A DNA stretch of 64,000 nucleotides, taken from contig NC_088710.1 in the NCBI RefSeq assembly GCF_963576615.1, positions 3,576,001 through 3,640,000 of the forward strand. The letters are read 5' to 3'. This document shows positions 3,141 to 52,210 of the stretch, in pieces. Under the pieces are notes generated by a model. That model was not told where the DNA came from. It saw only the letters and a program-made list of their open reading frames with translations, and searched no databases. Within the stretch, counting starts at the first letter, position 1. Every line of letters begins with the position of its first letter. The position numbers were made by a program, and so were the translations under genes. Origin of the DNA: Watersipora subatra. Lineage: Eukaryota > Bryozoa > Gymnolaemata > Cheilostomatida > Watersiporidae.

Positions 3141-8871
<5,731 letters not shown>

Positions 8872-26500: not shown

Positions 26501-29500
26501 TATCTTACGCATACATCATGCATGTTACAGTGGAGGTACATAATGCAGGTTACAGTGGAGGTACATAGTGTAGGTTACAGTGGAGGTACATAGTGTAGGT
26601 TACAATGGAGGTACATCCTGCAGGTTACAGTGGAGGTACATAGTGTAGGTTACAATGGAGGTATATAGTGTAAGTTACAATGGAGGTATATAGTGTAGGT
26701 TACAATGGAGGTACATAGTGTAGGTTACAGTGGAGGTACATAATGCAGATTACAGTGGAGGTACATAGTGTAGGTTACAGTGGAGGTACATAGTGTAGGT
26801 TACAGTGGAGTACATAGTGTAGGTTACAATGGAGGTACATAGTGTAGGTTACAATGGAGGTACATAGTGTAGGTTACAATGGAGGTATATAGTGTAAGTT
26901 ACAATGGAGGTATATAGTGTAGGTTACAATGGAGGTACATAGTGTAGGTTACAGTGGAGGTACATAGTGTAGGTTACAATGGAGGTATATAGTGTAAGTT
27001 ACAATGGAGGTATATAGTGTAGGTTACAATGGAGGTACATAGTGTAGGTTACAGTGGAGGTACATAATGCAGATTACAGTGGAGGTACATAGTGTAGGTT
27101 ACAGTGGAGGTATATAGTGTAGGTTACAATGGAGGTACATAGTGTAGGTTACAGTGGAGGTACATCATGCATGTTACAGTGGAGGTACATAATGCAGGTT
27201 ACAGTGGAGGTACATAGTGTAGGTTACAGTGGAGGTACATAGTGTAGGTTACAGTGGAGTACATAGTGTAGGTTACAATGGAGGTACATAGTGTAGGTTA
27301 CAATGGAGGTATATAGTGTAGGTTACAATGGAGGTACATAGTGTAGGTTACAGTGGAGGTACATAGTGTAGGTTACAGTGGAGGTACATAATGCAGATTA
27401 CAGTGGAGGTACATAGTGTAGGTTACAGTGGAGGTACATAGTGTAGGTTACAATGGAGGTACATAGTGTAGGTTACAGTGGAGGTACATAGTGTAGGTTA
27501 CAGTGGAGGTACATAGTGTAGGTTACAGTGGAGGTACATAGTGTAGGTTACAGTGGAGGTACATAGTGTAGGTTACAGTGGAGGTACATAGTGTAGGTTA
27601 CAGTGGAGGTACATAGTGTAGGTTACAATGGAGGTACATAGTGTAGGTTACAATGGAGGTACATAGTGTAGGTTACAGTGGAGTACATAGTGTAGGTTAC
27701 AGTGGAGGTACATAGTGTAGGTTACAGTGGAGGTACATAGTGTAGGTTACAATGGAGGTATATAGTGTAGGTTACAATGGAGGTACATAGTGTAGGTTAC
27801 AGTGGAGGTACATCATGCATGTTACAGTGGAGGTACATAATGCAGGTTACAGTGGAGGTACATAGTGTAGGTTACAGTGGAGGTACATAGTGTAGGTTAC
27901 AGTGGAGTACATAGTGTAGGTTACAATGGAGGTACATAGTGTAGGTTACAATGGAGGTATATAGTGTAGGTTACAATGGAGGTACATAGTGTAGGTTACA
28001 GTGGAGGTACATAGTGTAGGTTACAGTGGAGGTACATAATGCAGATTACAGTGGAGGTACATAGTGTAGGTTACAGTGGAGGTACATAGTGTAGGTTACA
28101 ATGGAGGTACATAGTGTAGGTTACAGTGGAGGTACATAGTGTAGGTTACAGTGGAGGTACATAGTGTAGGTTACAGTGGAGGTACATAGTGTAGGTTACA
28201 GTGGAGGTACATAGTGTAGGTTACAGTGGAGGTACATAGTGTAGGTTACAGTGGAGGTACATAGTGTAGGTTACAATGGAGGTACATAGTGTAGGTTACA
28301 ATGGAGGTACATAGTGTAGGTTACAGTGGAGTACATAGTGTAGGTTACAGTGGAGGTACATAGTGTAGGTTACAGTGGAGGTACATAGTGTAGGTTACAG
28401 TGGAGGTATATAGTGTAGGTTACAATGGAGGTACATAGTGTAGGTTACAATGGAGGTACATAGTGTAGGTTACAATGGAGGTACATAGTGTAGGTTACAG
28501 TGGAGGTACATAGTGTAGATTACAGCGGAGGTACATAATGTAGGTTACAGTGGAGGTACATAGTGTAGGTTACAATGGAGGTACATAGTGTAGATTACAG
28601 CGGAGGTACATAGTGTAGGTTACAGTGGAGGTACATAGTGTAGATTACAGCGGAGGTATATAGTGTAGGTTACAGTGGAGGTACATAGTGTAGGTTACAA
28701 TGGAGGTACATAGTGTAGGTTACAGTGGAGGTACATAGTGTAGGTTACAGTGGAGGTACATAGTGTAGGTTACAGTGGAGGTACATAGTGTAGGTTACAG
28801 TGGAGGTACATAGTGTAGGTTACAGTGGAGGTACATAGTGTAGGTTACAGTGGAGGTACATAGTGTAGGTTACAATGGAGGTACATAGTGTAGGTTACAG
28901 TGGAGGTACATAGTGTAGGTTACAGTGGAGGTACATAGTGTAGGTTACAGTGGAGGTACATAGTGTAGGTTACAGTGGAGGTACATAGTGTAGATTACAG
29001 CGGAGGTACATAGTGTAGGTTACAGTGGAGGTACATAGTGTAGGTTACAATGGAGGTACATAGTGTAGGTTACAGCGGAGGTACATAGTGTAGGTTACAG
29101 CGGAGGTACATAGTGTAGGTTACAGCGGAGGTACATAGTGTAGGTTACAATGGAGGTACATAGTGTAGGTTACAGTGGAGGTATATAGTGTAGGTTACAG
29201 TGGAGGTACATAGTGTAGATTACAGCGGAGGTACATAGTGTAGGTTACAGTGGAGGTACATAGTGTAGGTTACAGTGGAGGTACATAGTGTAGGTTACAG
29301 TGGAGGTACATAGTGTAGGTTACAGTGGAGGTATATAGTGTAGGTTACAGTGGAGGTACATAGTGTAGGTTACAATGGAGGTACATAGTGTAGGTTACAG
29401 TGGAGGTACATAGTGTAGATTACAGCGGAGGTACATAATGTAGGTTACAGTGGAGGTGCATAGTGTAGGTTACAGTGGAGGTACATAGTGTAGATTACAG

Positions 29501-32500
29501 CGGAGGTATATAGTGTAGGTTACAATGGAGGTACATAGTGTAGGTTACAATGGAGGTACATAGTGTAGGTTACAGTGGAGGTACATAGTGTAGGTTACAG
29601 TGGAGGTACATAGTGTAGGTTACAGTGGAGGTACATAGTGTAGGTTACAGTGGAGGTACATAGTGTAGGTTATAATGGTAGTGAGACACAAAAATAATTT
29701 AAAGTTATATACATTGACAACTTCTTCATGTTTGGATTTCTATCAAAACCTTTTATAGATTTGCCTCCATCGGGTGGCCGTCAGTGCGATGGGAGGTTGA
29801 AACACTAACGACCACCCATTTCAATTGCTGGCTGTGCAATACCTACTCTGTGTAAATATCACACACACTATTAGGATGTTTACATAGTTAGTGCAGCTAA
29901 AAATAGAGGATTCTGTTTGTAGCCTTTTTTACAATATTGAAATAAGTTAGTTCACAACAAAGTTTCAACTAGTACTATATTTCCTGATTTTCCAGCAAAA
30001 GTGATATAATATGCTCATGTTGATAGCCAGCAGCTAGCTGTAGACTTAAATTCCTTTGATCACTTGGAATGACATTATAAGTACCTAGAAGTATATTAGT
30101 GGAACAATTATATTGGTGGTGAAAATTGTGTTCGTTACTAATATTCCAGTATCTTGAGCAAATAGCCTCTGACAACAAATAATGACAGACAAATAATAAC
30201 TTTTCAGTCGAGTAGAGAATCGGCGAGTTAACTGTAATAACAAGACTTGCCATTCGTCATTGCATCACTCACTTTACTACAGCTCTGGTGCTAGCTTGTC
30301 ACATAATTGTTAACGAATGTGAGAGAAAACTACTCCTTATTATAGAGTGAAGTTGTCTGCCCAATTACTATCTCCACAAAATGAATGGCCCTTTGTGGCT
30401 GTCACGCATTGACTTTGCGTTATCATTCATGCAATGTCTTAATCGTTGAAGCTATTTCCCATTTTGTGGTTTTGCACAATGCCTACCATTAATGTTAGTT
30501 TCTGCAGTATGGCCTTACGTGATGTTTGTGATTGGTGTTGTTTTTCTTATGTAGTAGCTTGTTTTCACTGGTGCTGAGGCTATTGTTTTCTAGTAGCATT
30601 TCATAGCTCCTAACATCACATTCACACACAAATAGTAATATTTTTGTTAACTGCCTGAAATCACCTCAATAGTCAGGTGAGCAATTTTTTTTTTTTTCTT
30701 GTTTCCACATTTTCTAATTATTTATTTTGTTCAATTGATAACGACTTATTGTAGAGACTTGGCAAAGCTCTTCAACAATGCCTATGAGACGGATTTCCTC
30801 ATTCAGCCGAACTATTTACTGACCGCAACCGACCGAGTGCGCAGTCTAAGGAACCCTGAAGTGAAAATGAGTAAATCTGATCCAGCCGAGAAGTCTCGTA
30901 TCGATATGTCTGACGACGAGGAGACGGTGCAGGTTAGGCTGAAACAGGCTGTTACCGATTGCATTGGTGAGGTGAGTGCTTGTCTACATAGGATTTTGTG
31001 TAGACCTGTACTACCAACTCTATCAGCTTGCGTAGTTATAGTTGTTTAGTGTAGCCCCGCACTACCAACACTATCAGCTTGTGTATTTATAGCTGTGTAG
31101 TGTAGACCTGCACTACCAACACTATCAGCTTATGTATTTATAGTTGTTTAGTGTAGCCTCGCACTACTAACTCTATCAGCTTGTGTATTTATAGTTGTTT
31201 AGTGTAGCCCCGCACTACCAACTCTATCAGCTTGTGTATTTATAGTTGTTTAGTGTAGCCCCGCACTACCAACACTATCAGCTTGTGTATTTATAGTTGT
31301 TTAGTGTAGCCCCGCACTACCAACTCTATCAGCTTGTGTATTTATAGTTGTTTAGTGTAGCCCCGCACTACCAACTCTATCAGCTTGTGTATTTATAGTT
31401 GTTTAGTGTAGCCCCGCACTACCAACACTATCAGCTTGTGTATTTATAGTTGTGTAGTGTAGACCTGCACTACCAAGACTATCAGCTTATGTATTTATAG
31501 TTGTTTAGTGTAGCCTCGCACTACTAACTCTATCAGCTTATGTATTTATAGTTGTTTAGTGTAGCCTCGCACTACTAACTCTATCAGCTTGTGTATTTAT
31601 AGTTGTTTAGTGTAGCCCCGCACTACCAACTCTATCAGCTTGTGTATTTATAGTTGTTTAGTGTAGCCCCGCACTACCAACACTATCAGCTTGTGTATTT
31701 ATAGTTGTTTAGTGTAGCCCCGCACTACCAACTCTATCAGCTTGTGTATTTATAGTTGTTTAGTGTAGCCCCGCACTACCAACTCTATCAGCTTGTGTAT
31801 TTATAGTTGTTTAGTGTAGCCCCGCACTACCAACACTATCAGCTTGTGTATTTATAGCTGTGTAGTGTAGACCTGCACTACCAACACTATCAGCTTATGT
31901 ATTTATAGTTGTTTAGTGTAGCCTCGCACTACTAACTCTATCAGCTTGTGTATTTATAGTTGTTTAGTGTAGCCCCGCACTACCAACTCTATCAGCTTGT
32001 GTATTTATAGTTGTTTAGTGTAGCCCCGCACTACCAACACTATCAGCTTGTGTATTTATAGTTGTTTAGTGTAGCCCCGCACTACCAACTCTATCAGCTT
32101 GTGTATTTATAGTTGTTTAGTGTAGCCCCGCACTACCAACTCTATCAGCTTATGTATTTATAGTTGTTTAGTGTAGCCTCGCACTACTAACTCTATCAGC
32201 TTGTGTATTTATAGTTGTTTAGTGTAGCCCCGCACTACTAACACTACCAGCTTGTGTATTTATAGTGGTTTAGTGTGGCCCCGCACTACTGACACTACCA
32301 ACTCTATCAGCTTGTGTATTTATAGTTGTTTAGTGTAGCCCCGCACTACCAACACTATCAGCTTGTGTATTTATAGTTGTTTAGTGTAGCCTCGCACTAC
32401 TAACTCTATCAGCTTATGTATTTATAGTTGTTTAGTGTAGCCTCGCACTACTAACTCTATCAGCTTGTGTATTTATAGTTGTTTAGTGTAGCCCCGCACT

Positions 32501-35500
32501 ACTAACACTACCAGCTTGTGTATTTATAGTGGTTTAGTGTGGCCCCACACTACTGACACTACCAGCTTGTGTATTTATAGTGGTTTAGTGTGGCCCCGCA
32601 CTACTAACACTACCAGCTTGTGTATTTATAGTGGTTTAGTGTGGCCCCGCACTACTGACACTACCAACTCTATCAGCTTCTCTTGGCTACCAGAATTACT
32701 GTAAAACTTTTATTTTAATGCCATGGCATTCTATCTTCCAACCGTTTCTCTATAGTGGCAGTCAAATAGAGGTGGTGTTCAGATAGAGGTGGCATTCAAG
32801 TAGAGGTTTTACGGTAGTTGTACTCGAGAGATGTTTAGTAAATCCTTTCTGCAACTTGTTAAGACACGGATGAGTGATTATAACAGAAAAGCGCATCAAA
32901 CACGCTCCAATTATATATATTGAATTCTTGTTACAATAATAATGCAGTAATCTAATTTATATTGTATATTTATATATTTTATAATAATTGTTTATAATTT
33001 ACATTAATCTGGAGGTATAAATATGGTTTTATTATATATTTGTTGTATAAAAACAAGTTATTTAGGGCTACACTTGGCTGCTCCGTTAAAGGAGTTTCAT
33101 TCCCATACCCAGATCAGCATATCAGGCACCCAGATCAGCATATCAGGCACCCAGATCAGCATATCAGGCACCATTTTGTTAGATTTATTTCTCCGAAGCC
33201 TTCACAACACTCCTTAGCTATTTCTTTACCAATAGCTTTCAGTTTCTAATCCAAAAATGATCTCTGTATTGAATGAAAGCAATCTAATAGCAATTGTGTA
33301 TATTAGGGGTTGTCAAAACCCTTCCTTGAAAACTTTCTTCTAGGATTCACCTATCATCTAAACAAACATAGGCTTTCGTGTAGCAATATTGGAGTGGCTT
33401 CAATGTTTACCCGGTTATCAGCCATTGAAGACTGTAGGCCTACCCTTATTGGGATGAACTGCCATCATGGAATGATGAATCACATCCACTATCTTGCTTT
33501 GCCGGATATATCTGGCCTCGTTCAATACGATGCATCATGTCATGAGAGAGTGAGCATCTGTAATTTCCTTGTCCTTATGCAGAACTCATCCTTCCTGAAA
33601 CTAATTTAGGTGAGGTCTCTGGTGCGCTTGACTATCCCCTCTCACAGATACCACATGCATTATTAGTAACTGGGCAGCCTTCCACAATGTTTCCATCCTG
33701 ACTCTAGTTACCGCCTTTAGTTGTAATCATACAGTCTGGAGAAAAAAATAGTTGGGATATACAATCTGCAATGCTTGGCATTTCAGATTTGGACTTGAAT
33801 AACTCTCAAGTTTTTACAGATTGATCCCAAAACTATATATATTCTCATTTCTTATATCGTTAATAATCTAGTGAGTTTAATTGCATCATTTTTTGGTCAT
33901 GTTAGACACCACTTAAGGGAGCATGTCTACAAAAATCACCAGTTACATTTTTGATTAAAAAAAAATGTCCGTGATCAAACTATCTAATAATCTTCTCAGA
34001 GGTTTGAACCACTCTTTGTAATATGATGACCTTGAAGTCTAATAATAACTCTTTGTAATATGATGACCTTGAAGTCTAATAATAACTCTTTGTAATATGA
34101 TGACCTTGAAGTCTAATAATAACTCTTTGTAATATGATGACCTTGAAGTCTAATAATAACTCTTTGTAATATGATGACCTTGAAGTCTAATAATAACTCT
34201 TTGTAATATGATGACCTTGAAGTCTAATAATAACTCTTTGTAATATGATGACCTTGAAGTCTAATAATAACTCTTTGTAATATGATGACCTTGAAGTCTA
34301 ATAATAACTCTTTGTAATATGATGACCTTGAAGTCTAATAATAACTTTTTGTAATATGATGACCTTGAAGTCTAATAATAACTCTTTGTAATATGATGAC
34401 CTTGAAGTCTAATAATAACTCTTTGTAATATGATGACCTTGAAGTCTAATAATAACTCTTTGTAATATGATGACCTTGAAGTCTAATAATAACTCTTTGT
34501 AATATGATGACCTTGAAGTCGGCCATCGGAGTAAAGAAATTAGTTTTAGTATTTGGTAGGCTACTCCATCAGTAAGTTACTCCCCCAGTAAGTTACTCCC
34601 CCAGTAAGTTACTCCCCCAGTAAGTTACTCCCCCAGTAAGTTACTCCCCCAATAAGTTACTCCCCCAGTAAGTTACTCCCCCAGTAAGTTACTTTTGGGG
34701 AGTTACAAGTAAGTTACTCCCCCAGTAAGTTACTCCCCCACTAAGTTACTCCCCCAGTAAGTTACTCCCCCAGTAAGTTACTTTTGGGGAGTTACTTACA
34801 AGTAAGTTACTTATATCTTCACTTTTGAGTTACAATTAAAATTGCTCACTAAATGAAGAGGGGATTAAAATTATCTTTTAAAACTAAATTAGTTACAGTC
34901 CTTAGAGTCTAAGTAGGCCTATTCTATTGATATATAAATATTCGTAGCGTCTGGATCAGAGACAAGGAGTATGTCGAGATAACAAATTTAGTTTGATTTA
35001 GCCTATTAAATTAGTATATCCCGACTATTTTGTCTTGTTAATATTAGTTTTGTGTGTTGAAACCATGGTATGTTAGAGCAAATGCTCTTATACAGGTACA
35101 TTGTATTTACTTTAACTCGTTCTGCAGCTTCAAAACTTCATAAATTATCAAGGGAAATACGTATGACATTAAAATAAATGTCTTATATAAAGCTATATCA
35201 AAACTGAATTATTTGTAATAATTTGTATAATAAATAAATTGTGCACAGATAAAGCAAAAATGAGTTGAAAGATGTGCCTATTGCCATATGTCTTCACATT
35301 AATGATGGGTTAATTGAGGTGTAGACTAGGGGATGCAAGAGATGGACTATGGCGCCTTACAGTGCCTCGCGTTGCGCGTTCACAACTCGAGTTGTACAAC
35401 TCGAGTTGCCGTGTTGTCCAACTCGAGTTGCCGAATTGTACAACTCGGCCTGGGTTTATGACCTGGAGTTGTGTTACCTATACGCAAAACTAACACGGGT

Positions 35501-41500: not shown

Positions 41501-44500
41501 TGTACTAGTGTCAGCATTGTGAACTGCTTTAGAAAGCATACTGGAAGCATCAGCTACTTGCCTTGTCCTTTATATGTATAGAAATCAACTTTTAAGGCGT
41601 TTATAATATTAAAATTGCGTGTTTTTGATGCTGTGTGTTTTTAATTATTTGATTTGAAAATGTCATTTGTTCAAAATTATGTGATTTTGAAACATTAAGC
41701 CCTGCTACACCAACTTACCTTAGCGTGTGACAATCACTTAGACATGTTGTAAATGTCGTGCTACACTGTCATCCATCTCCTTCAGAACTTACCAGAGTGA
41801 CCAGGGCTGCCTTGATAGTGATGAAGACAGTGACCACTGTCTTCATCCTGCTGGAGTCGGCACAATGAAGACAGTGTCAAAGGGGGCGTAGAATACATGC
41901 ATGTTTTACATGACACATGTTTTAGTTGTAAATCCAATTGCTTTCTTTCGGTACTTTCCAGTTTGCATAAGAAATCTGAATGCACTCACGGGGATTGACC
42001 TTGTGCTGTGTCACACCTGTTCTGCACCCTCACCATAATGTCAAACCTGTCCTATTTTGTAGCAAATTTTTTCATAGGAATATATTTTATGAATTTTATT
42101 CGTTCCACAGCCTCTAAACCTAGTGACAAACACTCCTGGTAATACTCGCATGTAGCATTAAAACAAATCTATTTTATAAAACTATTTAAAAGTTATGAAT
42201 GCAAAATCTAAATGATGGTTTAAACAATAAATTATTTCTAATTTTAAAGGCAGCAAGTAAAATTTGGTAAATTTCGTATAATATTTTTGGAAGTTAGTTA
42301 GAAAATTCTCAAGAAAATTGGTACAATTTTTACCATAGAGACATAAAAACAGAAGGGATGGTCAGGTTCAGAAAGGAAGTGTGTGATCAAGATATCCCGT
42401 TTGTTGTACGGGCTATAAAAAACGCTTTTGCATAGAAAATTTAATATTAATTATCAAAGTTTCTTCACCCAAAGAATATGAGTAACTTAAGCTAGTAACA
42501 TAAGCTAGTCTAAATCTTTACTATAATAAGAGCTGTTATTATAACTTAAGTCATCATTAGGAAAAATATTGTGCCTTGATCTCTCACGCAACCATGATCT
42601 TAAAGCGCGCTAGCTGCAGCATGAGTATTTTAACCAAGCGGCACCGGAGATTGACAGGTGTATTAAGTATGTGCACAACTATTCCATTGTATAGCGATGT
42701 AGTCGCTTGGCCTAGCGGTTTACTGCCTAGCGGTTTACAGCCTAGTGGTTTACAGCCTAGTGGTTTAGCACCTAGTGGTCTGCAAACCTGGAGGTTCCGC
42801 AGTGGAGGTAATGTAGTTGCCTGCCATTAGCTAGCAGCCTGGCAGATTGCCAATGGCTAATTTGAGTAAGCTTACTAATAAGAGCTAACTACTTGCTCTC
42901 AGCGCGCATAAAACGCTACGCTCTGCGTGACATTGCGTCATCACGGTTGCGGTCGTAACAGAGAGTGGTAGCGTATTTGCATCCAAATAGTGACATATAT
43001 CGCCGAAGAATCCATCAAGCTTGTGCGACTTAATTGGTAAGGGGTTGGTCTGGCTAATGGGAGGGTCCCAGCTCAAATCTTCTGCGATGCAGATTCTTTA
43101 TTGCAAGACTGTAATAGCTACTGGACAAACACACATACCAACTTTGAGATCTATATATACTTATAGATGTGCATCTCATGCTATGATTGGAGCTGCTAAT
43201 GAAGACAATATCAAGAGGCTAGAGTAGATAAATGAAATGCTTCAGAATGTGCTGTTTCTGTCCGTCTCTTTGTCTAGGTTCACCTTTATCTGTCTCACAT
43301 AGAGTTCACTTTGCAGACAGTGTGGACGAGGTAACACAATGTTCGTGATCACTATCTTTGTTCACCCTCCCGGCGCAGACAGTTCGCCTCACCAATCTTT
43401 TGACCGCATAATACTCCAGCTTGTGATGTTATTGCTTTGGGGATCGACAACCTCCACGGGAGAAGCTGATACGCATATGCCACCTACTTGGGCTCTTTGG
43501 GTCAACAACAGGAAACTGCCTGAGTTCTGAGGCAGTAAGAAATTTTGCCATAGTCGCGCGCGCCATGACTTGGCAAAGCTTGAATTGTCTTCACGAATGC
43601 CTGGCTTTATTTACCTTCCTAGCCGAAATCAGTCTCATTAAGTTGTAGTTAAAACTAGCCAAAGGCAGTCTAACCCTCATAAGCATAGGTCTTAGTGACA
43701 GTTCTTACATTTCACCTTCCTAGTTCACCCCAACCACACTTTTCAGGGCTACCTACTCTTATGATGGAGTTGTTCACTCTCATAAATCCATCCCCTTTTC
43801 TTTATCATAATATCAGAAGCTTCTTTAAACATGCATGTTTTACATATCAGTACATATGTGCAAACAGTTCTTTCTCTAGCTTAGCTCTACAGTATTCCAT
43901 TAATAGTAAATATTGTTTTCTTTTATAGTTTTAAATTCATGTCTCAAGATGACTATGTGGGTGGTGGTGAAATAGGGTGTAAGGAAATGCTTCTCTTAGC
44001 ATCTCAGCAATAGATAATATGGAAAACATGAGTAAACATTCTCCCATTTAATTCTCTAACAAATTTCTGAAGCCGTTTTAGTAGTTATTGTGAAGAGGAA
44101 AGTGGAAGTGATGCAAGCAAAGAAAGCTTGAAACAAGTAAAGCTGAGAGGCTGGTCATGATAATTAAAGATGCGATGCGAAAGGGTTTAGTAATATAATA
44201 TAATTTATGTTATTTTAAAGATTGTGTAGTTCAGGTTAGACCAGCTTAGGGCCTATATCTCTATCTCTACTACTGTACCATCTCTATCTCTACTACTGTA
44301 CCATCTCTATCATTACTACTGTACCATCTCTATCTCTACTACTGTACCATCTCTATCTCTACTACTGTACCATCTCTATCTCTACTACTGTACCATCTCT
44401 ATCTCTACTACTGTACCATCTCTATCTTTACTACTGTACCATCTCTATCTCTACTACTGTACCATCTATATCTCTACTACTGTACCATCTATATCTCTAC

Positions 44501-46532
44501 TACTGTACCATCTCTATCTCTACTACTGTACCATCTCTATCTCTACTATTGTACCATCTCTATCTCTACTATTGTACCATCTCTATCTCTACTACTGTAC
44601 CATCTCTATCTCTACTACTGTACCATCTCTATCTCTACTACTGTACCATCTCTATCTCTACTACTGTACCATCTCTATCTCTACTACTGTACCATCTCTA
44701 TCTCTACTACTGTACCATCTCTATCTCTACTACTGTACCATCTCTATCTCTACTACTGTACCATCTCTATCTCTACTACTGTACCATCTCTATCTCTACT
44801 ATTGTACCATCTCTATCTCTACTATTGTACCATCTCTATCTCTACTACTGTACCATCTCTATCTCTACTACTGTACCATCTCTATCTCTACTACTGTACC
44901 ATCTCTATCTCTACTATTGTACCATCTCTATCTCTACTACTGTACCATCTCTATCTCTACTACTGTACCATCTCTATCTCTACTACTGTACCATCTCTAT
45001 CTTTACTACTGTACCATCTCTATCTCTACTACTGTACCATCTCTATCTCTACTACTGTACCATCTCTATCTCTACTATTGTACCATCTCTATCTCTACTA
45101 CTGTACCATCTTTATCTCTACTATTGTACCATCTCTATCTCTACTACTGTACCATCTCTATCTCTACTATTGTACCATCTCTATCTCTACTACTGTACCA
45201 TCTCTATCTCTACTATTGTACCATCTCTATCTTTACTACTGTACCATCTCTATCTCTACTACTGTACCATCTCTATCTCTACTATTGTACCATCTCTATC
45301 TTTACTACTGTACCATCTCCATCTCTTCTACTGTACCATCTCTATCTTTACTACTGTACCATCTTCATCTCTACTATTGTACCATCTCTATCTTTACTAC
45401 TGTACCATCTCTATCTCTACTACTGTACCATCTCTATCTCTACTATTGTACCATCTCTATCTTTACTACTGTACCATCTCTATCTCTACTACTGTACCAT
45501 CTTTATCTTTACTACTGTACCATCTCTATCTCTACTACTGTACCATCTCTATCTTTACTACTGTACCATCTCTATCTCTACTATTGTACCATCTCTATCT
45601 CTACTATTGTACCATCTATATCTCTACTACTGCACCATCTCTATCTCTACTATTGTACCATCTCTATCTCTACTATTGTACCATCTATATCTCTACTACT
45701 GTACCATCTCTATCTCTACTATTGTACCATCTCTATCTCTACTATTGTACCATCCAGCTCATCAGTACTCCACATTTAGTTCTGTAAAGGGAAGGTTCAA
45801 TGACAGTAAAAACTGCTTTCCATTTATTGTTGGTCTATTAGTTTAGTATATAGCATATAATTTAGTTTGTGCATTATGCGTTTGTTTGATTGTTATATAC
45901 AATCACCTAAAGCATTTGTTGTTTAGATTTTTGTTATGAAATAAAATACAATGTATTTTCACAGTATTCTTTACACCAGCTTACAATAGCTTCAACACAT
46001 GAAGAAAATTATTTTGAAGGTTAAACTGTGCTTTAGTTTCATGTTTTACATAAGAATTTCATATGTTGAGGGAATCGTAACAGAAGGTTTAACTATTACT
46101 ATTATGACGTATTATTCTAGCTATCTTAACCCATATCTGATGCTGATATGTTCAACTAGTCAATAGATGTCACTGATTATATGAAGTAGTTTCGCGAGGT
46201 CGCACTCAAGGTCACACGGTGAATCTGTTTTCTAGGTCTACTATTCAAAGGACCGACCTGGTGTTTCCAATCTTATAGACATCCACTCGGCTATGACAGG
46301 TCTCAGCTATGATGATATAAAGGAGCTAGCGAAGTCTATGGACACCGGGCAATATAAACTATTCCTAGCCGAGATCGTTAATGAGCACCTCAAACCAATA
46401 CGAACCAAAATAGACGAGTTAAATAGAAACAAAGACTACGTAGAGAGTGTATTGAACACTGGCAGTATACAGGCTTCGGAAATTGCTAGTAGAAATTTAA
46501 GTACTATTAAATCTCTTATTGGATTAAAATAA
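17563..46532 (+). CDS. WARS2: Mitochondrial tryptophanyl-tRNA synthetase WARS2
   Basis: A class I aminoacyl-tRNA synthetase that charges mitochondrial tRNA-Trp. Exons: 17563-17738, 24296-24465, 25341-25468, 25908-26059, 30755-30971 and 46236-46532. All sites are GT/AG and all phases agree, giving 379 codons from the first ATG or 368 from the in-frame ATG at 17596 (human 360 residues). Exon 1 gives an Arg-rich, acid-poor leader fitting a mitochondrial presequence and ends ILFS, which continues into GIQPT in exon 2. Hallmarks: the HIGH-type motif [67 protein letters not shown], and the KMSKS loop EVKMSKSDP in exon 5. The last exon carries [14 protein letters not shown] and the helical C-terminal domain. 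Introns 1 (6.6 kb) and 5 (15.3 kb) are unusually full of arrays and transposons. No stop or frameshift is seen, so the gene appears functional. Confidence 0.96.
17817..20503. mobile_element. TACTGTAAAACC-ended DNA element, copy 2, split by Tigger
   Basis: It starts TACTGTGAAACCTTTATTCG and ends AGGTTTTACAGT in inverted form. It matches 13545-14687 over most of its length, including the minus-strand coding relic ([16 protein letters not shown] around 18240-18350, here with stops). A 1250-bp Tigger-like element is inserted at 18989-20238. It lies in WARS2 intron 1. Confidence 0.7.
18989..20238 (+). mobile_element. Tigger/pogo relic nested in copy 2 element
   Basis: The ends CAGTAATACTTCAACTTGCG and, inverted, CAGTCATACTTCAACTTACG are flanked by TA on both sides (18987-18988, 20239-20240). 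The plus strand encodes the DNA-binding part of a Tigger transposase. A psq/CENP-B-N type helix-turn-helix lies at about 19265-19410 ([29 protein letters not shown]). After a frameshift, part of the second CENP-B-like domain follows ([20 protein letters not shown], near 19517-19580). The catalytic DDE domain is absent, so the copy cannot move itself. Confidence 0.85.
20561..20630. repeat. Two copies of a 35-bp direct repeat
   Basis: TTACTTTTAGGTGTCATATC plus 15 more bases occurs twice in direct succession, starting at 20561 and 20596, without differences. Confidence 0.9.
20690..20770. repeat. TA/CA-rich microsatellite
   Basis: Interrupted TATATA/ACACAA sequence in WARS2 intron 1. Confidence 0.7.
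20793..21110 (-). repeat. SINE-like element
   Basis: On the minus strand it starts near GATGTAGTTGCCTGCC and passes through a GC-richer body. A tRNA-like segment follows (A-box-like TTGGCTAAATTGGTAAG, B-box-like GAGATCAAATCTTC), and it ends ATTCCAATATTTTAATAGCT. Copies with the same order lie at 23335-23620 and 42800-43145. Confidence 0.6.
21170..21560 (+). repeat. CCCGGCGTTGCCCGGG element, full-length
   Basis: It starts ACTAGCTGTGCTACCCGGCG then TTGCCCGGGTAATG, and ends AATAGCTATAGC, ACAGACAGACA, then ACTTTGAGAAATATATATAG before the next copy. Partial copies follow at 21561-21740 and lie reversed at 5455-5650. It looks like a SINE, or the 3' end of a LINE that mobilises SINEs. Confidence 0.6.
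21561..21740 (+). repeat. CCCGGG-type element, partial copy
   Basis: GACTAGATGAATGCCCGGGT starts a second, truncated copy directly behind the full one, covering its first 180 bp. Confidence 0.6.
21890..22323. mobile_element. Fold-back element with about 130-bp inverted arms
   Basis: GGTAACGGTGCATTTTAGGT at the left is mirrored by GCACCGTTACC at the right. The arms (about 21890-22015 and 22190-22323) are imperfect inverted copies rich in GCGCATACAACG and GCACAAACATTG blocks. ATTTTAG borders both sides (21883-21889 and 22325-22331), a probable 7-8-bp target duplication. No coding capacity. Long arms starting with G and a target duplication of this size would fit a Mutator-like or fold-back element, but the family is uncertain. 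Confidence 0.7.
22340..22400. repeat. GCATGC palindrome cluster
   Basis: GTGTTGGCATGCGAA alternates in both orientations (four GCATGC sites in about 55 bp) next to the fold-back element. Confidence 0.6.
23098..23275 (+). repeat. tRNA-derived SINE-like element
   Basis: The tRNA-like head has a perfect A box TAGCTCAGTGG (23111-23121) and a good B box GAGTTCGAGTCC (23162-23173). The tail AATTCCAAGACTTTACTAAC and GACAGACAGACGG follow. It pairs with the reversed copy at 4750-4905. Confidence 0.7.
23335..23620 (+). repeat. SINE-like element
   Basis: It begins GGCAGGTAATGTAGTTG and ends GAGATCAAATCCCATGCGAT, ACAGATTTTTATTGC and a TAATCGCTATAA tail, matching the forward copy at 42800-43145. Confidence 0.6.
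23864..24000. repeat. Imperfect tandem repeat of about 36 bp, four copies
   Basis: CATATGCATTCATAGATATA followed by CCAGCACTGGTGT recurs four times with scattered changes in WARS2 intron 1. Confidence 0.75.
25549..25890. mobile_element. GC-rich miniature element with GGTTTCCAT ends
   Basis: AAAGCCGGGTTTCCATTTAT at the left and, inverted, AAGCTTGGTTTCCATATCGA at the right bound about 340 bp of GC- and CpG-rich sequence (GCACCGGCGACAGCACCGCA and similar). It sits in the short WARS2 intron between exons 3 and 4. No coding capacity; the family is unknown. Confidence 0.5.
26091..26200. repeat. 18-bp tandem repeat behind WARS2 exon 4
   Basis: GTCTGCAGTGCGAGTCTC recurs about six times with single-base changes, starting about 30 bp after the splice donor at 26060. 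Confidence 0.85.
26512..29679. repeat. 25-bp minisatellite, about 127 copies
   Basis: The unit TAGGTTACAGTGGAGGTACA plus TAGTG fills about 3.2 kb of WARS2 intron 4. Variants include CAGTGG/CAATGG/CAGCGG, TACATA/TATATA and 24-bp units that lost one G. The marker TACATCATGCATGTTACAG occurs at 26512, 27161 and 27809, and the blocks that start at 27161 and 27809 are the same over several hundred bases. The array therefore has a higher-order period of about 648 bp. Confidence 0.97.
29680..30754. other. Rest of WARS2 intron 4
   Basis: Ordinary AT-rich intron, ending in a poly-T tract and the splice acceptor before 30755. No other feature recognised. Confidence 0.5.
30999..32676. repeat. 51-bp minisatellite, about 33 copies
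   Basis: The unit TGTAGCCCCGCACTACCAAC plus ACTATCAGCTTGTGTATTTA plus TAGTTGTTTAG recurs from 27 bp after the splice donor of WARS2 exon 5. The marker variant TGTAGACCTGCAC lies at 31101, 31458 and 31866, that is 7 and 8 units apart, so blocks of units were duplicated together. The right end breaks into shorter units. Confidence 0.97.
32697..32816. mobile_element. 120-bp MITE with TACTGTAAAAC ends
   Basis: The left end TACTGTAAAACTTTTATTTT and inverted right end TACCGTAAAACCTCTACTTG are about 25-bp inverted repeats. The interior is the terminal CTATCTTCCAACCGTTTCTC-type sequence of the larger elements at 13545 and 17817, so this is an internally deleted derivative. Confidence 0.75.
33108..33171. 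repeat. Three copies of a 21-bp repeat
   Basis: CCAGATCAGCATATCAGGCA plus C recurs three times without change in WARS2 intron 5. Confidence 0.9.
33172..34005. other. Repeat-free part of WARS2 intron 5
   Basis: A 99-codon plus-strand frame at 33310-33609 shows no domain. Nothing else recognised. Confidence 0.4.
34011..34520. repeat. 37-bp minisatellite, about 14 copies
   Basis: CTCTTTGTAATATGATGACC plus TTGAAGTCTAATAATAA repeats almost without change (one C-to-T visible), so the array is young. Confidence 0.97.
34563..34805. repeat. 16-bp minisatellite with inverted pieces
   Basis: AGTAAGTTACTCCCCC repeats about 14 times, interrupted twice by TTTTGGGGAGTTAC, the inverted form of the unit, so hairpins can form. 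Confidence 0.9.
35348..36670. mobile_element. 1.3-kb inverted-repeat element with CTCGAG palindromes
   Basis: The ends TATGGCGCCTTACAGTGCCT, continuing CGCGTTGCG, are inverted copies of each other for about 30 bp. GATGGAC occurs directly outside both ends (35341-35347 and 36671-36677), a 7-bp target duplication, or 8 bp if the border is shifted by one. Inside are 14 copies of the palindrome AACTCGAGTT: three next to the left end, eight at 36262-36415 and three next to the right end. A separate fold-back element is nested at 35691-36088. No transposase gene is seen. An 8-bp duplication would suit hAT or P-type elements; the family is not settled. Confidence 0.8.
35691..36088. mobile_element. 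Fold-back element nested in the CTCGAG element
   Basis: The arms 35691-35836 and 35942-36088 are inverted copies with only a few differences (CCCAAACAGGTTTACATACG at the outer part, AGGAACACAAAATT at the inner part), around a loop of about 105 bp. No coding capacity. Confidence 0.8.
36678..39200. other. Middle of WARS2 intron 5
   Basis: Unique-looking AT-rich sequence. Several short open frames exist, none with a recognisable domain or splice context. No RNA gene seen. Confidence 0.4.
39208..39330. repeat. Dispersed repeat, copy A
   Basis: TAAGCCCTGTTACGCCTACT ... GACATGTTGTAAATGTCATG ... AGTGACCAGGGCTGCC matches 41696-41820 with scattered substitutions. Confidence 0.75.
39660..40060. repeat. 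Dispersed 0.4-kb repeat, copy A
   Basis: Matches 58995-59395 in order and orientation: GATGTAGATTTGGAGTTGTA, then TACATTGAGTCACCGTG, later CATTCGCAAATG, TTCCATCTTTCGCAAACATG and, near the end, CATCATGGAAA. Diverged and non-coding. Confidence 0.65.
40078..40180. mobile_element. Truncated MITE of the TACTGTAAAACC family
   Basis: ACTGTAAAACCTTTATTTGA, CGCCATGGCGCT and TCAACCCTTCTTCTATAGTG match the ends of the elements at 13545, 17817 and 32697. The right terminal repeat is missing. Confidence 0.7.
40181..41695. other. WARS2 intron 5, no gene seen
   Basis: Short frames only. The part around 41060-41300 resembles 62690-62830 in short blocks (for example CTTTCTGATAAAAT), probably an old repeat shared with the element at 62270. 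Confidence 0.35.
41696..41820. repeat. Dispersed repeat, copy B
   Basis: Second copy of the repeat at 39208-39330, same orientation. Confidence 0.75.
42711..42785. repeat. 15-bp tandem repeat, five copies
   Basis: CCTAGTGGTTTACAG recurs with small changes, directly before the SINE-like element at 42800. Confidence 0.85.
42800..43145 (+). repeat. SINE-like element
   Basis: It runs from AGTGGAGGTAATGTAGTTGC through a GC-rich body (around 42900-42990) into a tRNA-like part with TTAATTGGTAAGG and GGGTCCCAGCTCAAATC. The tail is TTTATTGCAAGACTGTAATA then GCTACTGGACAAACACAC. This is the best-preserved copy of the family seen at 20793 and 23335. Confidence 0.65.
44259..45754. repeat. 23-bp minisatellite, about 65 copies
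   Basis: CTCTATCTCTACTACTGTAC plus CAT fills 1.5 kb of WARS2 intron 5, pyrimidine-rich on the plus strand. Because 23 is not a multiple of three and the unit has no stop in any forward frame, all three frames stay open for 325-424 codons. These frames are side effects of the repeat and not genes. Confidence 0.97.
45755..46235. other. End of WARS2 intron 5
   Basis: AT-rich sequence leading to the acceptor GTTTTCTAG before exon 6. No other feature recognised. Confidence 0.5.
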
Positions 46533-46533: not shown

Positions 46534-47204
46534 ATTGCCTTTGTAAATATTTATTCGATTTTCCTCTCGCATCTTATCTGGTATTGAATTTTTGTATTGG
46601 GTTTCCATGTTCAGCTTACGAACATCAAAGTTATTTTACTCAATATCAGAAAACAAAGACATCGTGCCCTTGCTCTCTCTTTCTCATCCTGCAATAAGTT
46701 GGAATATTCAAATATGTTGCAAAAGTTCGGTACAGGGTTTGACAGAAGGGTTGCTGACCTTAGGCCGGTTGATGTGAACTTTGTCCATCCGTGTCATCAG
46801 CAGTAGTAGAAACTACTTGTACAGCTAGTGTCTGGAGATCGAATGTTCACCAAGGACAGCTGGTTTTACTACAAACAGGCTACGCCTAGAGAATAAACGC
46901 CAAAAGGTGGCTGCATATACAGAAATATTTTTTCTGCCAGACTTTTAGTGCGAAAATGTTTTAGACAATTTTTTTATATTGGTTGTTAATGTAATAATTT
47001 TCAACCAAAATATAAATATTGGACATGTCTAAAAGATGTTGACTGTAGCTGTCATTCATGCATTTGCTTTGCCTGGAGATTGCATCATGGTCAGCCAGGA
47101 CATAATAGGGTATGATCAAAACATATTCAAATAAAAAATCGTAGCCCGAAACTTCCGTCAACGTTCATTGGGCCTGAGAATTGAGGGTTTTGCAGAACCC
47201 TTAA
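46534..47204. other. Intergenic stretch, WARS2 to transposon
   Basis: No gene or RNA recognised. It ends in the TTAA that borders the transposon. Confidence 0.4.
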
Positions 47205-47332
47205 AGGTTGACTTGCAACAAAATTCACATTACAGTTATTTGGTATCAAAAGATTCGCCATGTTTTACTCTGTTGTGTGGTAGGTGCCAAATATGTGGAA
47301 ATGTGATTAAAAGCTCTTAAAAGCTCAAAAAC
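47205..47332 (+). repeat. Left terminal inverted repeat of the transposon
   Basis: 128 bp, starting AGGTTGACTTGC. Near its inner end it contains a direct repeat of AAAAGCTC (TTAAAAGCTCTTAAAAGCTC). Inverted partner at 51123-51250. Confidence 0.95.
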
Positions 47333-47590
47333 AAAAAGCCGCCGTAGATTGGAATCTCTTGATTTCGATGACGTATCCGCGCTGTATGGTTATCGTCTTG
47401 TCACGTGATGTTCTCGCGTGAATTGAAAGGCCAATAAAAAGCTCAATATCAAACTTATCGTAGCAATAGTTTATGATAATCACTTCGGGTTTTACCTAAG
47501 ACCCCGTATCAAATATAGATGCTCGCTACTTTACAGTTTCGGCTTGGCCATTCCGTTCGACTATTCATGTCTGAGTTGCGATCATAAAAA

Positions 47591-48211
47591 ATGTCAAATT
47601 CTGAAGAGTTAAGACCCTGGCGTTTCGAGCCTGACGCTCTATCTGAAGAAAATCCTCAACAGAATAAAACCTCCCAGCAAGTAAGCACCGCCACTAGCCA
47701 GCTCTTATGTGCCAAGCTAGCTAGTAGTAATAGTTTTAGCTTGAGAGTGATAGAACGAATATTATTATATATGATTTTAATGATGATAATTGTCGCTTCA
47801 ATATTGCAAAAAAATAATTACAGATTTTTCTCGAATGACAACATTAACAATTTTAATATTTAAATCTAGTGCTGCACTGATATACTGTTGGATAACATCG
47901 ATCTGATGTATTAGCTATGGTTGCATAGACATATCTGTTCATTTCTTTAGGAGCTAATACCACCGGCTACAGAGTGGTGTGCCTGCGAGCGTTGTCAAGA
48001 CATGCCATCTCTTCCTGAATGTTTGTGCTGCCATTATGCTGAGTTTGCGCATTGTCTCCTTCACCGAGGGGAGCATGAATGCCTGCGTATGCATCCTGGT
48101 GTAAACGAATTTGTGGCGTCTGCACCCCTTGAGTTGAGGTGGAATAATTACCTGCGATATCATAGTGAGTTGGATATTCATTTAATGCCAACAACACCAA
48201 GGTTATGCTAA
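47591..48211 (+). CDS. P2X7 ballast-like cysteine-rich protein in transposon
   Basis: Two exons, 47591-47680 and 47951-48211, join in phase 0 (donor CAA/GTAAGC, acceptor TTCTTTAG) to give 116 residues. Exon 1 encodes an N-terminal LRPWRFEPDA, like the 'RPYxFEPE' segment often seen before this domain in invertebrate proteins. Exon 2 encodes WCACERCQDMPSLPECLCC, then a Cys/His region (CLLHRGEHECLRMHPGV) and LRWNNYLRYHSE. The pattern WCxCxxCxxMPxxxECLCC...C...HPG is the zinc-coordinating part of the intracellular ballast domain of vertebrate P2X7 receptors; no channel part is present. The frame is fully open and the key cysteines intact. Its place inside the inverted repeats indicates that it belongs to the element, perhaps as an accessory protein. 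Function unknown. Confidence 0.8.
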
Positions 48212-48467
48212 TGTGTCAAGCATTATCTACAATTCTTGTGTTACACATTTAATGCATCAGTTGAACACACATATTCTGAACTCGTGGAACACAAGGAGAA
48301 CTGGTATATTTGGCTTGTACACTTACTACAGTAGAGAGTGTATTAGTTTTATGATTTTATTATATAAAGATCGAGATTATTTTGATGATCAGCAATTATT
48401 GTTTTTCAATAGATTTGGTAGATAATCTATTCCCATTTGGAGAGCCATCGCCAAATGCTCGGAAAAG

Positions 48468-48660
48468 GTTGTGTTCATACCGCAATCTTGTTTTGGTTTA
48501 TGCCGCAAATCTTGTTTGCAAGTCTGCAAACTCTTCTTCATCATTCGTTGGTGGGAAAAGAGCCCGAATCTTAGACACCAAGCATGCAGGTAGAGGCCGT
48601 CGCTCACGGCGACAAATTTGCGGCATAAGCCAAAACACAAGCTTGCAGTATGCACACAAC
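48468..48660. repeat. 45-bp inverted repeat at the broken transposase end
   Basis: The arm at 48468-48510 (GTTGTGTTCATACCGCAATC ... TTATGCCGCAAAT) is mirrored at 48615-48660 around about 105 bp. It begins exactly where the transposase loses similarity, so it may be a small insertion or the scar of a deletion. Confidence 0.65.
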
Positions 48661-50621
48661 CTTTGTAACAACATCCGTTGTAATGGACCTCACTCTCAGG
48701 CCGTGGGAAATTAGATCGGACTGGCATCGCTTGAAGCCTTCCAGCTCCATGGTGTTAGAGCTGATGGTCTCTGTTGACTGCAATGTAAAGAAAGTTACGA
48801 CCAACAATTACTTTCACATTATTTGAATGAACTATTTAGCTAGATGAGCAACTTCATGTTTATGTATTGATAACTACTAAAAAATTTGGGTTTTTGTCAG
48901 GCTGTGAAGTAAAAACTGTCAAAGTTTTACCTTGACAAGATGGCTGCTGACTATTAAACCGCAGCTCTGATCCATCATAGTGTAGGCTCTGTATAGTGCG
49001 CAATGCCCCGGACTATCGCATCTACCGTCACCTGCCAAATCAAGCTCCCAATCGATTGCTGCCATCAATCCCTCGTTATGCAGGGTGCACTGCTCAGCAA
49101 TACACTGTAAAATATTGTAAAACTTCATTATACAAGATTAATTTGTATCATTATCATTAGTCTAAGAATGTAGAATCCTCTTCCCCCTTTTTGTGCTATA
49201 TTATGATGAATCAGAATTTTGAATTATAATATATTTTGCTTGAAGGATGACATATTTTCATTTCAAAAAAAAATTGTTTCTAAATGTTGTTATTCAATTA
49301 GTGTGCCAAGCTTTTACTCACATTTTCCAAGTTTATGAGTAAATATTAACACTCACACCATGTAAGTATTCTCTTTGTTGGTAGAGGCAAACGCTGTGGC
49401 TTGGAATTGCGATGTTCAGGAGCGACAGAAAACGGAGGTTCTGCGTAAGGCATCCGCCAGAAAAGAGTGATGCAGCTGCCAGCAGGGGGTTGATGACGTG
49501 AGCTCTGTTCACCCTGGCAGTTGTTTCCCAAGTGTACGATCGGTGACAGGAGGCACATGTAACCTTGAACTCTACCCATCCGCCTTCTCGCACCATCGTG
49601 AATGAGCAGGGGAGGGCGCAGGTGTGACAGTGAAATAGTCGCTGGAGTGCTGTCACACTTACTATTATTTTCTCCTCCTTGAAGGAGGATTCGGTTCTGA
49701 AATCACAACACAATAGTTGACTTGCAATAAGATTTGTACAACATCATTTCCTGTTATTATATCATATTTGCTTGATCAGAAAAAGAATAAATATATAGCC
49801 ATGCAATCATGACACAGATTTTACAAAACCCTATCAGAATCCATGATATTGTAAACATAAAATGTGAGTAATAACTCTATGGATATTTTTTATATTTTGT
49901 CAAGTTTGGTTTAGTTCAGCTCTATCTTACATGTAATTGGAGAGCGTTTGACGCTGGCCAACATAGCGCTCAAACTCTTCCCAGTCTTCAGTGGTTGGCA
50001 CAAACTCTTCATCTAATAATAATCAACTAATAATATTAATATGCTATTAACGATGATACCAGAAAATGACAATAACTATTTTATATAACATATCTATAAG
50101 TGAGTGGGGTTAAGAAATTTGGCGAAATTAATCGTGAAACAACATTATTTTATCAATTATATATTAATATATTACGTTTTACAGATAGATATGCAGTATG
50201 AATTAGTTTTGTTATTATAATAAGAATAATACACGTAATTAAAAAGATAAAATACTAATAATATAATATTACAATTAAATGACATTAATATTGTTATATT
50301 AAATATATATTAATACAGTACTATTAGGAGAATACTAGATAATAACCCGAGTTACAACTACTAATACAAGTAGTTCATAAAATAAATTACTCACGTGCTT
50401 TGGTGATATGTGGAGTATGCAAACAGGTTAGAAAACATGTCGTCTTTGAACTGGCGAAAACAAAGGTAAGAGTAAGCAGACGAATAAATAAAGTTTGTCA
50501 CATCCAGCTTCACCCAGTTGCTCCATGCCCGGTGAAGGTCTAGTCTTTTCTCAGCTCTTGGCCAAAAAAAGGTGCTTCTCAGTTTGGCAGCTGCACAAAC
50601 ACTATGTGGCGCGTTAGACAT
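48604..50621 (-). pseudogene. THAP-like/DDE-like transposase gene, truncated
   Basis: Minus-strand exons: 50395-50621, 49931-50012, 49357-49696, 48931-49104 and 48604-48777. Exon 1 (from ATG 50621) resembles a THAP DNA-binding domain (FFWPRAEKR, HRAWSNWVK, LCFRQFKDDMF), but the usual zinc-binding His is Gln. Exons 2-5 join in phase and carry SVTALQRLF, CxxC pairs (CHTCALPC, CASCHRSYTW), NPLLAAASLFSGG, then AGDGRCDSPGHCALYRAYTM and MELEGFKRCQSDL, ending ITTDVV. I recognise this string from a widespread uncharacterised metazoan protein family with a likely RNase-H-type catalytic fold, where the last segment is usually TDRH. Here it diverges and stops about 20 codons later, at an inverted repeat. 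Exon 1 does not connect to exon 2 without a stop. The gene is therefore dead. Confidence 0.8.
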
Positions 50622-51122
50622 TATGACGAATTGAAATAAACAAGTTTAATATGAGATAGCGTGTTTGCCATTTGCGATAGATCAAACTTGAACTGAAACT
50701 AACATTATCTGATCATGTGACTTACGATTCCCGCTATATGGCGCGAAAAATTTCTACAGCATTTTTCAACCATCATAGCGGACCAAAAAGCTCATCATTT
50801 TTATCAGAGAATGATATGCAATCGTTCAAGCTAAGCTTAAAAAATTAAACATATTTTTATGCTATGTTTTGAGATATCAGTGCTCAAAGTTGCAGCATTA
50901 CGATGCCGATAAAATAGACGCGTAAGAACAATAGACATGGTTTTTATCGCAAGCGTGAAGTATATTTGTGAAAATAGTTCGACGAATAAGGATGCATGAA
51001 AGTGTAAACATAAACTATCTCGCACACATTTTAGCCGTTTTAGCACACATACGTCACATTTTAGCCGTTTTGGAAAACGAATCCAAACTAGGGCGGTCTC
51101 GTGTGGCTGCGATTTTCTGTTC

Positions 51123-51250
51123 GTTTTTGAGCTTTTAAGAGCTTGTAATCCCATTCCCACATATTTGGCACTTACAACACAATAGAGTAAGACATGGCGA
51201 ATCTTTTGATACCAAATAACTGTAATGTGAATTTTGTTGCAAGTCAACCT
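51123..51250 (-). repeat. Right terminal inverted repeat of the transposon
   Basis: Mirror of 47205-47332 with seven substitutions, all in the inner half, and no gaps. Confidence 0.95.
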
Positions 51251-51254
51251 TTAA

Positions 51255-52210
51255 GCAAATAAGAATACATTTACCTAACCTGTGGTTTGGAAGAAAGCTT
51301 CAAGCGACAAGTTCATTGAAGCAAGTTGTTTTGAAAATGGAGGATAGCACCATTTTTTTCATATTTTTAAAACTTTAGCTATTGAATCTTGTTACATAGT
51401 ACGTGCAAATATGATGGTTAAAAGAGCATTTTTAAACTAAAACTATAACATCCCTAAAGTATGCAAAATTTCCCGATTCGAGTATAAAAATGCTCACATG
51501 AGGTTGTGTTATGTTATTAATTTTAGTAATAAAAACAAATACCGATAAATAATGAATAGTTATAAGCATGGTGACTCTAAATCTATAGAAATATTTTTTA
51601 CTAGGTAGGCTTAGTCTATAGCCTCAATTGTGTTGTCTGCTCAGAAAAGCTTTTAAACTTTTAACAGCTTTATCAAAACCACAAGACCGCTTTGTAATAA
51701 AAGATGACGGAAAATGGATTTTAACCTGGCGGTAATTTTATTGGTCATCTTGTTGAGATATTCAAGTCTTTGAAATTATCAGTGATTTATTACTATTGCA
51801 TGTTTTAATAATCGTTACAAAAGTGCTTAATCTGTATAAAGTATGTTCAAGTGAACATCAAATTGCTACAACATCATGTTACAGATTATTAGTGTTTTTG
51901 CTTTTGTAACAGCAATATTGGAAAAACTAGAAGAAGCGACAAAACAGAGTTTTAAAAAGTTTGCCAGTTTTTTAGTTCCTATGTTGTTCAAATATAGCGA
52001 TATAACATTGGGACAATTTTTTAAGATTATGTCCTGTTGATAGCTTTGACACTTGCATAATACTTGCATAGTTCTCGATAAGTACGAGCGTTACTTAAGT
52101 TCCAATGTAGGATTCAGCGCGCTAAAAACTTGAATATAGATGAAACATACATGTACTGATAATTGTCAGATCAAGAAGTGTTGCCCTACCTTTGCCTTAA
52201 TCAATTATAC
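51255..52210. other. Intergenic stretch right of the transposon
   Basis: AT-rich; no gene or repeat recognised. Confidence 0.4.

Follow-up and report, generated by a model that had tools for sequence, protein, structure and literature searches.

A probable KolX-bearing Kolobok transposon copy with an inverted ballast gene end in the bryozoan Watersipora subatra

Introduction

Kolobok transposons of the Kol0 group encode a transposase and a second protein, KolX. KolX resembles residues 476-595 of P2X7, has the ballast fold and has been proposed as the likely origin of both the P2X7 C-terminus and Nanor; Kol0 elements with KolX are described there from diverse animals (Kojima & Bao 2022, PMC9587614). 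The same paper gives Kolobok ends as 5'-RR and YY-3', unlike those of piggyBac. Another article, PMC9319628, also mentions Kolobok and P2X7. Ballast-domain proteins occur as free-standing proteins in many animals, and the equivalents of P2X7 residues H547, R574 and K583 are reported to be absent outside deuterostomes (Rump et al. 2020, PMC7016195).

Our literature searches found no work besides PMC9587614 that links KolX or the P2X7 ballast domain with transposons, and none besides it on Kolobok transposons in Bryozoa. The name Watersipora does not occur in the main text of that paper, which names a bryozoan (Membranipora) for KolobokP. Here we describe a TTAA-flanked element with a ballast-type gene in a 64,000-nt stretch of the Watersipora subatra genome (the window).

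Results

Ends and setting of the element

The unit is 4,046 bp long (47205-51250) and is flanked by TTAA on each side (Table 1). Its terminal inverted repeats are about 134 bp each, are 94% identical and start with 5'-AGG. When the TTAA is included, the inverted repeat extends to 139 nt with 94% complementarity (arms 47200-47338 and 51117-51255). Within 46801-51700, exact inverted matches reach 64 nt, the longest such match in each of 50 resamplings under a first-order Markov model being 10-18 nt. The 24-base end, TTAA included, occurs twice in the window at up to three mismatches, where the expected number is 0. No further copy of the element or of its ends was found elsewhere within the 64,000-nt window, and the 24-base end has no exact match in viral contigs. 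An initial annotation of this DNA had placed the unit and its flanking TTAA at these same positions, and had taken the repeats, which are real, to be 128 bp long.

Two genes converge inside the repeats, a ballast-type (P2RX7_C-like) gene on the plus strand and a Mutator/Kolobok-like transposase on the minus strand. An exon of a tryptophanyl-tRNA synthetase gene of mitochondrial type precedes the element, which lies about 0.7 kb downstream of it. This open frame (46236-46532, plus strand) resembles mitochondrial tryptophan--tRNA ligase in its C-terminal part (PDB 5ekd, E 7.4e-17) and has no Pfam match at E <= 0.01. Tandem arrays are found elsewhere in the window, with a 25-bp unit in 126 copies (26524-29672) and a 51-bp unit in 32 copies (30994-32655). 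A third array, of about 65 copies of a 23-bp unit (44230-45846, plus strand), leaves all three forward frames open for 509-538 codons; these frames are a product of the repeat, not a gene. A tRNA-Asp (GTC) at 3371-3442 on the minus strand is the sole Rfam match at gathering score and the sole ARAGORN gene in the window.

Table 1. Positions of the features of the element in the window
Feature	Position	Strand	Remarks
Left TTAA, presumed target site duplication	47201..47204	.	
Left terminal inverted repeat	47205..47338	+	5' start AGGTTGAC
Ballast exon 1	47591..47680	+	ATG start, GTAAGC donor after; tblastn with P0001-P0004
Ballast exon 2, carries the zinc pattern	47951..48164	+	76-96% identity to four W. 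subatra proteins; P2RX7_C profile 64-103
Start of ballast exon 3, with arm 1	48413..48513	+	P0002 residues 102-132 (on + at 48421-48513)
Inverted ballast C-terminal part, including arm 2 (48616-48664)	48522..48665	-	P0002 residues 116-163, 85% identity
Transposase exon E, second presumed catalytic Asp (ITTD)	48666..48777	-	Ends at a break near 48665-48672; C-terminal part beyond it missing
Transposase exon D, first presumed catalytic Asp (GDGRCDSPGH)	48931..49104	-	
Transposase exon C, cysteine-rich	49357..49696	-	PF20700 match
Antisense stretch inside transposase exon C	49385..49470	+	Last exon of predicted P0001 and P0004
Possible extra transposase exon B, doubtful	49931..50012	-	Joins C in phase but not A; P0006 skips it
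Transposase exon A, probable N-terminus	50395..50621	-	No Pfam domain; in-phase join to exon C
Right terminal inverted repeat	51117..51250	-	CCT-3' end on +
Right TTAA, presumed target site duplication	51251..51254	.	

The ballast gene is split between strands

A ballast search retained 5 of 11 candidates; four of these 5 are W. subatra proteins (P0001 to P0004). A search with P0002 then retained 8 of 14 candidates, namely the same four W. subatra proteins (P0002 included) and four others. P0002 is 163 residues long and scores 37.3 bits against P2RX7_C (PF20478), over the curated cut-off of 23.5 bits. The scores of P0001 (19.8), P0003 (21.3) and P0004 (18.5 bits) are under it.

In the window, exons 1 and 2 and the start of exon 3 join in phase on the plus strand. 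The plus-strand model matches profile positions 64-103 of P2RX7_C (19.4 bits, E 0.0011), and positions 146-185 are matched on the minus strand within 48498-48689 (17.3 bits, E 0.0047). P2RX7_C is the only Pfam family found for either piece at E <= 10, and both pieces score under its cut-off. Exon 3 parts from its relatives after NLV through a 2-nt gap against arm 2 in the alignment of the two arms. Arm 2 is arm 1 in inverted orientation (arm 1 near 48464-48510), so that P0002 residues 116-132 are found twice in the window in opposite orientations, as an internal inverted repeat. Beyond 48513 the plus strand is unmatched by the relatives, and the same stretch is matched on the minus strand. The two P2RX7_C pieces on opposite strands, together with the inversion of the stretch that corresponds to the final 48 residues of P0002, indicate that the ballast gene is broken. 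The zinc pattern reported in the initial annotation does lie in exon 2, but the gene that carries it is not the intact one that had been claimed. A three-exon model with an open frame of 201 codons was rejected, since past 48513 the frame traverses the inverted segment.

P0001 and P0004 both run on from ballast exon 2 into the antisense strand of transposase exon C (96% and 89% identity, respectively, over 27 residues), so both loci keep the gene pair in the same convergent order. Joining exons 1 and 2 to this antisense stretch gives a 129-codon frame that is open in the window too. A P0001-like splice would thus yield from the window a predicted protein of 129 residues with the zinc half only. 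Separately, exon 1 read into its intron (47591-47860, plus strand) resembles P0005, on a 990-base contig, with 96% identity over 90 residues, which points to a near relative of the element on that contig.

The transposase breaks off after its second aspartate

Exons A, C, D and E, the last running from 48777 onward, are in phase on the minus strand and stay open for 304 codons, past the breakpoint. Exon C matches PF20700 (Mutator) with E 3.9e-5 and 23.2 bits, under the 26.5-bit cut-off. Of 561 candidates in a transposase search, 20 were retained, and the two best are from W. subatra. Six transposase-like proteins were scanned against Pfam; PF20700 was found in P0008 and P0015 only, and P0006, P0007, P0010 and P0017 had no family at E <= 0.01. 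In an alignment of the window with 7 of the 20 search matches, all eight rows carry the same residues in the columns around RCDSPGH and TD.

The break falls just after the second presumed catalytic Asp. The sibling P0007 matches the window at residues 1-80 of 306 only, and its 226 C-terminal residues are unmatched in the window. Beyond the matched part P0007 reads TTDRH, DAWH and later an E. The window copy holds the first two presumed catalytic D; the part with C/DxxH and E is cut off here and present in P0007 (DAWH).

This much bears out the description of a transposase relic. The THAP domain that was part of that description found no support: exon A has no Pfam THAP match at E <= 10, a search in which HMMER filters may lose weak matches, and against PDB it gave weak unrelated matches only, a result that a degenerate THAP could also give by escaping detection. 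A frameshift between exons A and B was considered and dropped because exons A and C fit together in phase, as they do in P0006. Exhaustive joining of five transposase exons produced no frame of more than 330 codons.

Relatives in the W. subatra genome

The loci of P0001, P0002, P0003 and P0004 are apparently on chromosomes 6, 2, 4 and 1 of W. subatra, and the contigs of the relatives as a whole appear to correspond to chromosomes 1, 2, 4, 6 and 8 of assembly tzWatSuba1.1. P0002 and P0007 lie on a common contig of 77.13 Mb; this shared contig suggests that they belong to one element. P0006, on a 65.55 Mb contig, agrees with the window frame at 240 of 243 residues, including the break and the read-through past the breakpoint. 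P0006 may mark another locus or another haplotype of the window locus, and so may P0001. No relative of P0002 was confirmed in viral contigs.

Similarity to P2X7

Searched against PDB as single sequences, the window ballast model and the inverted piece found nothing at E <= 1, and P0002 found two unrelated weak matches and no P2X7 at E <= 10. P2X7 was reached with profiles. A profile from eight KolX relatives retrieved four PDB sequences at E <= 10, every one of them P2X7 (best E 0.0023), and a five-row profile retrieved four at E <= 1, again P2X7 throughout (best E 0.00085). As in the P2X7 ballast and Nanor-like proteins, there is a cysteine-rich exon of zinc type, and the cAYR, W, LPxC, R and FP positions align with P2X7. 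Unlike P2X7, the gene models here have no channel part. The profile alignment keeps the equivalents of R546 and R578 and lacks those of H547, R574 and K583, in agreement with what Rump et al. (2020, PMC7016195) report outside deuterostomes. The AlphaFold model of P0002 is poor, with a mean pLDDT of 51.9 and values under 50 across residues 1-87, the zinc part included.

Classification

Taken together, these features make it very probable that the element belongs to the Koloboks of the KolX-bearing (Kol0) type, as a non-autonomous copy that has been rearranged and that was inserted into TTAA in W. subatra. The superfamily call is drawn from the TTAA, the ends, the Pfam match and the motifs. The 5'-AGG...CCT-3' ends agree with the RR/YY rule for Kolobok, as does the TTAA on both sides with its target site. 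The second gene, similar to the P2X7 ballast, is a mark of Kol0; it is supported through the siblings and split by the inversion in the window. In TTAA, RR/YY ends, a DDE transposase type with DxxH in the sibling and a ballast-like second gene, the element is like the Kol0 Koloboks of the Kolobok-1_XT type treated in PMC9587614. It is unlike them in its bryozoan host and in that the window copy has a shortened transposase and an inverted KolX 3' end. The long terminal direct repeats of KolobokP were not found, the longest direct repeat in 46801-51700 being 35 nt, nor was its His-Me finger nuclease domain in ten frames scanned at E <= 1.

TTAA on either side of the unit would also suit a piggyBac element, and a passage in PMC9587614 deals with piggyBac versions. 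We regard a piggyBac origin as extremely improbable. The AGG/CCT ends follow the very rule that separates Kolobok from piggyBac, the relic matches PF20700 Mutator and the sibling P0007 carries DxxH. Moreover, the piggyBac versions in that passage are without most of seven cysteines, whereas exon 2 here is cysteine-rich. Another explanation would make the ballast gene a free-standing host gene captured as cargo rather than the transposon's own. The spread of free-standing ballast proteins among animals is compatible with capture, and the word stem "transpos" is absent from the main text of the paper that describes them (PMC7016195). Against capture, the loci of P0001 and P0004 show the two genes again in this convergent order, and the Kol0 elements of PMC9587614 carry KolX in diverse animals. 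Cargo is thus a very improbable account. The initial proposal of a Kolobok-like transposon with the ballast gene as an accessory is supported by the TTAA, the RR/YY termini, the transposase type and this recurrence of the pair.

Within the Kol0 classification, the copy may still be an immobile relic, with P0006 representing the same locus in the other haplotype and the rearranged version never having moved. P0006 has the break too, with 3 differences from the window frame in 243 residues, and an alternate haplotype assembly of W. subatra exists, according to PMC12902671. On the other side, the copy retains its two inverted repeats over 134 bp, together with the TTAA, which makes mobility in trans possible. 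We hold the immobile reading to be a real possibility, at somewhat less than even weight.

Discussion

If still mobile, a Kol0 copy of this kind would move by cut and paste, its long inverted repeats being acted on by transposase that intact copies provide in trans. The ballast gene would be an accessory gene that belongs to the element, KolX, and not cargo. The KolX protein is most likely a small zinc-binding partner of the transposase, one that might for example bind the ends or assemble the complex. The window copy has lost the C-terminus of its transposase, and the 3' end of its KolX has become inverted with a short inverted duplication. A template switch during replication may have caused the inversion.

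The copy is defective and possibly mobilised in trans. DNA transposons commonly have short non-autonomous copies, and truncated repressors exist in other DNA transposons. By analogy, the inverted form might be a propagating subfamily whose shortened KolX, with the zinc half only and an antisense-transposase tail as predicted for P0001 and P0004, is expressed and regulates full-length copies; we consider this very improbable.

A transposon route to the P2X7 C-terminus, as suggested in the initial annotation, is already in Kojima & Bao (2022, PMC9587614) for KolX of the Kol0 lineage, and the direction of descent, from KolX to the P2X7 C-terminus, is the proposal of that paper. As far as our literature search reaches, what is new is that the copy is bryozoan and that it carries an inversion.

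Several relatives of this element appear to be present in W. subatra. Among them, P0002 and P0003 are uninverted predicted ballast proteins that could be used for tests of KolX function in transposition. That a free-standing ballast-domain gene of an invertebrate can belong to a transposon has been published, and the element gives an illustration of this claim at the level of raw sequence.
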